Shown: in pieces, positions 41,615 through 43,503 of the stretch
Layout of the letters: each line of letters opens with the position of its first letter
Position numbering within the stretch: position 1 is the stretch's first letter
NCBI GenBank assembly: GCA_902620525.1
Contig: CACNIK010000005.1
Coordinates: 31,415 to 95,414, forward strand
Reading direction: 5' to 3'
Source of the DNA: an uncultured Pelagibacteraceae bacterium
Lineage (GTDB): Bacteria; Pseudomonadota; Alphaproteobacteria; Pelagibacterales; Pelagibacteraceae
Length of the DNA stretch: 64,000 nucleotides
Made by a program: the position numbers and the translations under genes
Notes under the pieces: model-generated
Databases searched by the model: none
What the model was told of the DNA's origin: nothing
What the model saw: the letters and a program-made list of their open reading frames with translations, nothing else

Positions 41615-42262
41615 ATGAACATAATAACCAATTTTGAGAAAATAAAACAAGAAATTAAAAACAATCTACCTCAGAGAGATGTTAAAGTCATCGCTGTAAG
41701 TAAAACTTTCTCACTAGAACATGTTATGCCTTTAGTTAATTATGGGCACAAACACTTTGGTGAAAATAAAGTCCAAGAAGCTGAAAAAAAATGGAAAGAT
41801 TTGAAAAAAACCATTAACAATTTAAGTTTACACATGATAGGAAGATTGCAATCAAATAAAGCAAAAAAGGCAGTAGAAATATTTGACTATATACACTCTC
41901 TTGATAGTGAAAAGTTAGCTAATGAATTAAGCAAACGACAAAAAGAAAAACATAAAAATTTAGGTTATTTTATACAAATAAATTTAGGGTCAGAAGAACA
42001 AAAAGGTGGTCTCGAAATAAATGACTTAAAAAATTTTTACGACTACTGTGTTAAAGATCTTAATCTTTCAATTCTTGGATTAATGGCGATACCTCCTAAT
42101 GACAAAAATCCTGATAAACATTTTAAAAGAATATCTGAATTAAATAAACAATTTAACTTTCAACAGCTAAGCATTGGAATGTCCAACGATTACTTGCAAG
42201 CGATTAAATATGGAGCCTCTCATGTTAGAGTTGGTAGTGCTATCTTCGGATCTAGAAATTAG
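41615..42262 (+). CDS. YggS family PLP homeostasis protein
   Basis: VIAVSKTF, HFGENKVQEAEKKW, HMIGRLQSNK, LSIGMSNDYLQAIKYGASHVRVGSAIFG. Confidence 0.97.
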   Translation: MNIITNFEKIKQEIKNNLPQRDVKVIAVSKTFSLEHVMPLVNYGHKHFGENKVQEAEKKWKDLKKTINNLSLHMIGRLQSNKAKKAVEIFDYIHSLDSEKLANELSKRQKEKHKNLGYFIQINLGSEEQKGGLEINDLKNFYDYCVKDLNLSILGLMAIPPNDKNPDKHFKRISELNKQFNFQQLSIGMSNDYLQAIKYGASHVRVGSAIFGSRN

Positions 42263-42750
42263 AGAACTTTCAAAAAAGTATTTTTATTTATAACTGATAA
42301 TAAATATTTTAGGTCTCTCTTAGATAGAGCTATGCATCCTAATGTGGGTGAGTAATTTTTTTTTGCAACGTGCAAAAAAATTGCACTACCTTTTTTTTTC
42401 TTAATAGGATTTAGATTATAATCTATTACAACAATTATATCGTAAGTATTTTCTTTTATACGTAATTTCTCAGCATTGTCTTTGAATGGAAACTTAACAA
42501 ATTTGTTATAAGATTTTGAATTTATATCATCACACCAGCCGTAATTCTTCTTGATAGGTAAAATCTTAAGTTTGGAGTAGATCTTTTTAACTCTTTCTTT
42601 TCTGTAAAAAATATATTTAAATTTGAATTTACCTCTTGGAGTACATTTATCCCCTTCCACTTTTTTACTTGTAATTCCTCTTTTACCAATAGCGCATTTT
42701 GCTTTATAGTCTCCAAAATAGATAAATTTTTTTTTAAGTATTACATCCAT
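42259..42750 (-). CDS. L,D-transpeptidase (YkuD-type) family protein; start trimmed to MDVILKKK
   Basis: HVAKKNYSPTLGCIALSKRDL (YkuD-like H..GC motif region). Confidence 0.82.
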   Translation of the reverse strand: MDVILKKKFIYFGDYKAKCAIGKRGITSKKVEGDKCTPRGKFKFKYIFYRKERVKKIYSKLKILPIKKNYGWCDDINSKSYNKFVKFPFKDNAEKLRIKENTYDIIVVIDYNLNPIKKKKGSAIFLHVAKKNYSPTLGCIALSKRDLKYLLSVINKNTFLKVL

Positions 42751-43378
42751 GGCAGATAAAAAAAATATCATTTTAGCATTTGGAAATAAAGAATTTAATA
42801 ATTCTTTAATTGAAATTCAAGAATATCTCAGTTTCAATATAAAAATATTAGATGATTTAAAAGACGGAATTTCCTTAGAAAATTACCAAGGGATAATTAT
42901 TCACGAGGACGGGCTTAAAGATAATAGATTTAAAGATTTAATTAAAAATCATAATTTAAATAAAATTATTTTCCATAACTCAAAAAATATTAAAGGTACA
43001 GAAAATATTGAAAAATTAACTTTGCCAGCTTCTTTTGATCAAATAAATAAAATTGTAATAAACAATATTGTGAAAAGAAAATTTAAAACAAATTCATCTT
43101 TTAAAATTTATAATTATAAATTGGATAAAAATTTAAGACGTTTAATTAAAGATACAGTTCATTTGGAATTAACAGAGAAAGAGATAGAACTTATAGAATT
43201 ACTTAAAAAAAAATCATTTATAAAAAAAAAAGAAATTCTCTCTACCATATGGAAATATTCTGATGATGCGGATACCCATACTGTTGAAACACATATTTAT
43301 AGATTAAGAAAAAAAATTAAAGATATTTTTAACGATGATAAATTAATAAAAAGTTCAAAAGAAGGATATACGATTTGA
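42749..43378 (+). CDS. Winged-helix (OmpR/PhoB-type) regulator with divergent N-terminal domain
   Basis: C-terminal LTEKEIELIELLKKKSF...HTVETHIYRLRKKIKDIF...YTI. Confidence 0.82.
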   Translation: MADKKNIILAFGNKEFNNSLIEIQEYLSFNIKILDDLKDGISLENYQGIIIHEDGLKDNRFKDLIKNHNLNKIIFHNSKNIKGTENIEKLTLPASFDQINKIVINNIVKRKFKTNSSFKIYNYKLDKNLRRLIKDTVHLELTEKEIELIELLKKKSFIKKKEILSTIWKYSDDADTHTVETHIYRLRKKIKDIFNDDKLIKSSKEGYTI

Positions 43379-43503
43379 AAAAAAGAAATAAAATAGCTAA
43401 AGATTTAATGTCTCCAAAATACCGAGTAAGAATCGTAAAACCTAAAAAGGGCAAAGGTAGCTACAAGAGAAAAAGAAATAAGAATTACTCAGAACTAAAT
43501 TAA
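43375..43503 (+). CDS. ArfA-like alternative ribosome-rescue factor (42 aa)
   Basis: TTG start overlapping upstream TGA; MKKRNKIAKDLMSPKYRVRIVKPKKGKGSYKRKRNKNYSELN resembles ArfA motif P.FR.R...KKGKGSY.RK. Confidence 0.72.
   Translation: MKKRNKIAKDLMSPKYRVRIVKPKKGKGSYKRKRNKNYSELN

Follow-up and report, generated by a model that had tools for sequence, protein, structure and literature searches.

A short ArfA-family gene overlapping a winged-helix gene in the SAR11 bacteria

The window, which is the whole stretch of 64,000 nucleotides analysed here, contains a reading frame of 42 codons that is a real gene under strong purifying selection. It is very probably a genuine SAR11 arfA. Its product most likely acts in the same manner as E. 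coli ArfA, would be expressed steadily through coupling to the gene upstream, and would furnish a second pathway of ribosome rescue. New with respect to published surveys are the host clade, the shortened form that ends in a stop codon of its own, the overlap with the upstream gene, and the likely replacement of ArfB. The source genome belongs to SAR11 (Pelagibacteraceae), its nearest named relatives being single-cell genomes and metagenome bins of that family. It consists of 11 contigs (1.09 Mb, about 96% complete), and the locus is laid out as follows.

41615-42262, forward strand: YggS-family PLP-binding protein gene, a member of the conserved neighbourhood (profile match, locus comparison)
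42259-42771, reverse strand: L,D-transpeptidase (YkuD) gene, a member of the conserved neighbourhood (domain match, locus comparison)
42749-43378, forward strand: upstream winged-helix gene, 209 aa, with an OmpR-type C-terminal domain, PF00486 (Pfam)
43375-43378, forward strand: TTGA, in which the arfA start codon overlaps the stop codon (TGA) that closes the winged-helix gene (sequence; overlap kept in congeners)
43375-43503, forward strand: arfA, encoding the ArfA-family peptide MKKRNKIAKDLMSPKYRVRIVKPKKGKGSYKRKRNKNYSELN, 42 aa, TTG start and own TAA stop (PF03889, PDB ArfA chains, pN/pS)
43420-43437, forward strand: YRVRIV, residues 16-21, corresponding to F25-E30 of E. coli ArfA, the RF2-recruiting strand (alignment, conservation, PMC8012679)
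43447-43461, forward strand: KGKGS motif, corresponding to K34-S38 of E. coli ArfA, which occupy the empty mRNA channel (alignment; role from PMC6299226)
43508-44434, reverse strand: convergent PfkB-family carbohydrate kinase gene, a marker of the conserved arfA site (domain match, locus comparison)

Four bases separate the end of arfA from the stop codon of the PfkB kinase gene. The 209-aa winged-helix protein has no receiver-domain match in a Pfam search. The listed 5' ends of the L,D-transpeptidase and winged-helix reading frames overlap by 23 bases on opposite strands (42749-42771), and the true start of one of the two is probably downstream of the listed one.

Membership of the ArfA family

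The peptide matches the Pfam ArfA family (PF03889) with 33.2 bits (E 3.6e-8), above the curated cut-off of 25.5 bits, and is the single PF03889 match in the whole 1.09 Mb genome (per-genome E 3.7e-7), which bears out the ArfA resemblance proposed in an earlier note on this DNA. At E below 0.01, a search of PDB sequences retrieves E. coli ArfA chains from ribosome-rescue complexes and nothing else; residue i of the peptide falls opposite E. coli residue i+9 throughout peptide residues 3-35 (E. coli residues 12-44). The same alignment shows the E. coli sequence given in the earlier note to be correct. NCBIfam profiles gave no match to the peptide, and the PHROGs collection gave weak matches to families of unknown function only. 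Being basic, 42 aa long and devoid of the GGQ catalytic domain (PF00472), the peptide is no ArfB.

The positions conserved in SAR11 coincide, on this alignment, with ArfA positions of known role. Y16 is aligned to E. coli F25 and is followed by the beta-prone strand RVRIV; in E. coli ArfA, the aromatic F25 and the strand after it recruit RF2 (PMC8012679). Residues 24-34 (KKGKGSYKRKR) comprise the KGKGS motif, the segment of ArfA that occupies the empty mRNA channel (PMC6299226), and the basic residues that come after it. Among 114 distinct SAR11 sequences, collected with a search pattern that demanded KKGKGS, allowed Y, F or L at the aromatic position and partly constrained some other positions, L11, Y/F16, R19, R32 and the KGKGS core are retained, and the F25 equivalent is Y or F in all 114.

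E. coli ArfA (YhdL) shares with the SAR11 peptide N14, L20, the aromatic residue 25, R28, KKGKGS and R41, as well as the presence of RF2 in the genome, but differs in several respects. Its 72 codons are truncated through RNase III cleavage or at a terminator, whereas the SAR11 form has 35-42 codons and its own stop, lacks the hydrophobic tail, the KH pocket motif and the hairpin, overlaps an upstream stop with its start codon, and belongs to an alphaproteobacterium without ArfB. E. coli A18, where threonine blocks activity, is aligned with K, I, L or R in SAR11. Most SAR11 copies extend as far as the position matching residue 44 of E. coli ArfA, and the window copy as far as 51; since a 40-residue version of E. 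coli ArfA is inactive and 46-48 residues are ordered in structures (PMC8012679), the SAR11 tail is close to the known minimum. The short tail, the missing KH motif and the residues at the A18 position count against an activity like that of E. coli ArfA. By these comparisons the peptide is a member of the ArfA family, and its activity in rescue is strongly suggested by homology.

An unlikely alternative is that the peptide is a factor resembling ArfT of Francisella, which can use RF1 as well as RF2, and not an ArfA specific to RF2. ArfT is a rescue peptide of 40 aa, comparable to the 35-42 aa in SAR11, with its own stop and no internal hairpin, and was likewise unannotated in most genomes when found (PMC6299226). 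In ArfT itself, however, the motif is KKGGS and similarity to ArfA is low (PMC6299226). The SAR11 peptide has an exact KGKGS instead of the KKGGSTNKK tail of ArfT, together with an aromatic residue at F25, and over both halves it matches the E. coli chains as well as the ArfA profile.

Conservation of the gene and its site in SAR11

The earlier note had named conservation across SAR11 as a check on the gene, and of 297 genomes sampled from the order, 196 indeed contain a PF03889 match, every one of them in a single family (f1). One carrier is the cultured Pelagibacter HIMB058 (L082). In a sample of the whole class, ten of 385 genomes had such a match, three of the ten being SAR11. ArfA has been described as confined to some gamma- and betaproteobacteria (PMC11633108, PMC8012679); sporadic ArfA-like reading frames also occur beyond this published range in a few other alphaproteobacterial genomes (L222, L223, L225-L228).

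The gene lies beside the winged-helix and PfkB genes at 55 of 57 loci examined and at all 80 named loci. In Pelagibacter genomes without PF03889, the winged-helix and PfkB genes are adjacent and arfA is cleanly missing (L251-L262, L264, L267, L268). In genus g5 (L041:1498-1605, L047), an ArfA with KGKGS is found behind a photolyase-related gene instead of at the PfkB site, again with an ATGA overlap. The g5 relocation and the persistence of the winged-helix gene without arfA indicate that their linkage is not obligatory, and both count against the rather improbable reading that this is an ArfA-derived ribosome-binding peptide with some other role, such as hibernation, antitermination, or regulation by a product made together with the winged-helix protein. 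Near-fixed linkage in most SAR11 loci and the very short tail would suit such a role, but the residues that are conserved are the RF2-contact aromatic and those of the mRNA channel.

Selection at the codon level favours a genuine arfA. The frame and its context are preserved in 30 sampled congeneric loci, with lengths of 35-42 codons, and within codons 2-34 of these loci pN/pS is 0.158 in the arfA frame, compared with 1.06 and 2.33 for the two out-of-frame readings of that DNA, and variation is greatest at third codon positions. The earlier note had described the 42-aa reading frame and its TTG/TGA overlap, which are present as stated, and the synonymous bias that it had called for is evident in these ratios. 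An overlap of four nucleotides (NTGA) with the upstream stop is found in 30 of 30 congeneric loci and, beyond the genus, in 76 of 101 other SAR11 loci. That the frame arose by chance as a basic sequence in AT-rich DNA beside a real gene, as its shortness, abundant lysine and TTG start might suggest, is ruled out by this codon-level conservation and has a negligible probability, given that the low pN/pS is confined to one frame, that the frame is retained in 137 examined loci (in the same context in nearly all), and that the Pfam match exceeds its cut-off.

Relatives without KGKGS and copies in viruses

Many Pelagibacter genomes without PF03889 possess at another site a relative of 45 aa (type B), for example MSKKRKKVKKKNPMAKLLSSPMLRNKIVKNKKKIYNRKKFKLGNE (L247:1486-1623, reverse strand), which retains the N-terminal half and the basic tail of the KGKGS-containing peptide (type A), while KGKGS itself is gone. 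Type B genes (L229-L233, L237-L240, L244, L275-L304) occupy several sites, many of them overlapping an upstream gene by four nucleotides. Similar peptides are also encoded, at other sites, by genus g7 and by the majority of the genomes sampled from the sister family f2. Profiles of the two types align with an hhalign probability of 96.5%. A strong type B match (E <1e-9) without PF03889 occurs in 64 genomes (21 of g6, 3 of g7 and 40 of f2), and a type B model, which also detects type A, has a single hit in each of 215 genomes out of 216, corresponding to one gene of either type per genome. Altogether, 260 of the 297 genomes of the order have type A or type B.

This mutual exclusion points to functional replacement, but is suggestive only, because few independent events are involved: the PfkB tree requires three changes for type B, and in it the examined carriers from g6 group together as a single clade. 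Some near-complete Pelagibacter genomes (G063, G066, G067, G072) have neither type and just two PF00472 genes, and the combined model (A4) found nothing convincing in genomes with neither type; ArfA is thus not universal in SAR11. The score of one type B peptide, from genus g7, equals the cut-off of Pfam DUF7230 (PF23876), a family of unknown function. What the type B peptides have in common with SAR11 ArfA is the N[P]xAKxLRTPKF half and a basic tail, but not the KGKGS motif. A literature search under the name DUF7230 found no paper.

Viruses also carry the gene. A scan of IMG/VR identified at least 273 confirmed ArfA relatives on viral contigs, with C-terminal extensions that vary and are often longer, amid phage genes; four viral peptides scanned with Pfam pass the ArfA cut-off. 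One copy (L210:3962-4099) adjoins a GroES-like phage gene, with endolysin and exonuclease genes nearby, and a second inspected copy is near a phage endolysin gene. Contamination of the viral contigs with host DNA is countered by these phage genes at the two inspected loci and by the absence of host neighbour genes from all of the best 80 of the at least 273 loci (L142-L221). A tblastn search of a phage collection with the lysine-rich queries of 35-42 aa gave nothing better than one match of E 0.9; the low-complexity filter is a likely reason for this lack of matches. An ArfA of pelagiphage HTVC027P, gp30, has already been published (PMC12753301); it is a PF03889 protein from the viruses of SAR11 itself, reported to be highly expressed both early and late in infection, and is encoded by a phage gene, unlike the host chromosomal gene in the window.

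Rescue partners, expression and proposed function

The genome encodes a two-piece tmRNA (RF01849, 212.8 bits) with the tag ANNKFALAA, SmpB, RF1 and RF2, the last being the product of prfB on L033 (TIGR00020, 377 bits). No third PF00472 gene was found in the source genome, the two present being those of RF1 and RF2, which means that there is no ArfB; the check for ssrA, smpB and arfB suggested in the earlier note thus finds the first two present and the third absent. No more than two PF00472 genes are found in 296 of 297 sampled genomes of the order, and by this count ArfB appears to be missing across SAR11. A survey of 15,259 genomes, 2,376 of them from Alphaproteobacteria, recorded arfB in 2,022 of these alphaproteobacterial genomes and no arfA at all in them (PMC11633108). 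As arfB is common in other Alphaproteobacteria and lacking in SAR11, SAR11 apparently uses ArfA in its place; ArfA appears to occupy the role of ArfB by this argument from distribution.

In E. coli, the arfA message lacks a stop codon, and tmRNA tags the protein made from it (PMC8012679, PMC3989581). The typical regulatory traits of ArfA, namely a non-stop mRNA generated by a hairpin or RNase III site and a hydrophobic C-terminal tail, are not seen in the SAR11 gene, which ends in its own TAA after 42 codons, just as the earlier note had reported for the tail and the stop. A search for an internal hairpin or terminator-like site at arfA found none, and its RNA folds more weakly than shuffled sequence (z +1.5). 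With its own stop and neither hairpin nor terminator, the gene is probably free of the non-stop and tmRNA control of E. coli, and the absence of these sites supports the suggestion that it may be a minimal constitutive form.

The overlap itself suggests reinitiation after the winged-helix gene as the simplest model of expression. Start codons of the congeneric genes are TTG, ATG, GTG or CTG. CTG stands at the overlapped start of two congeneric copies (L009 and L011), in which initiation may depend on reinitiation instead of a strong start codon. Ribosomes that terminate on the winged-helix gene would restart at the overlapping TTG, making steady, low-level synthesis of ArfA probable, and a product made by coupled synthesis with its own stop would escape silencing by tmRNA tagging. 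Unlike E. coli arfA, the gene would encode the functional core alone, ending in its own stop; YRVRIV would add a strand to RF2, which would then hydrolyse the peptidyl-tRNA. Folding of the peptide is expected to require both the ribosome and RF2. We infer rescue activity, RF2 dependence and constitutive coupled expression for the SAR11 ArfA, and because the genome encodes tmRNA/SmpB and RF2 while lacking ArfB, this mini-ArfA is the likely second rescue pathway.

A broader reading, offered tentatively and held with slightly more doubt than belief, is that a constitutive, tmRNA-independent mini-ArfA replaces ArfB, that type B or DUF7230 peptides substitute for it elsewhere, and that, as the copies carried by marine viruses suggest, hosts and viruses compete for stalled ribosomes with this gene or exchange it. 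If so, DUF7230 would be a further release-factor-dependent rescue factor. The mutually exclusive type without KGKGS gives DUF7230-like peptides a concrete, testable function, and the viral copies make the capture of rescue factors by marine phages testable as well. That this short ArfA ends in a stop of its own suggests that an emergency factor silenced by tmRNA is not the only form ArfA can take. For SAR11, arfA is a possible answer to the apparent lack of ArfB, and a second rescue route would be retained even in the strongly streamlined Pelagibacteraceae, which are among the most numerous cells of the ocean.
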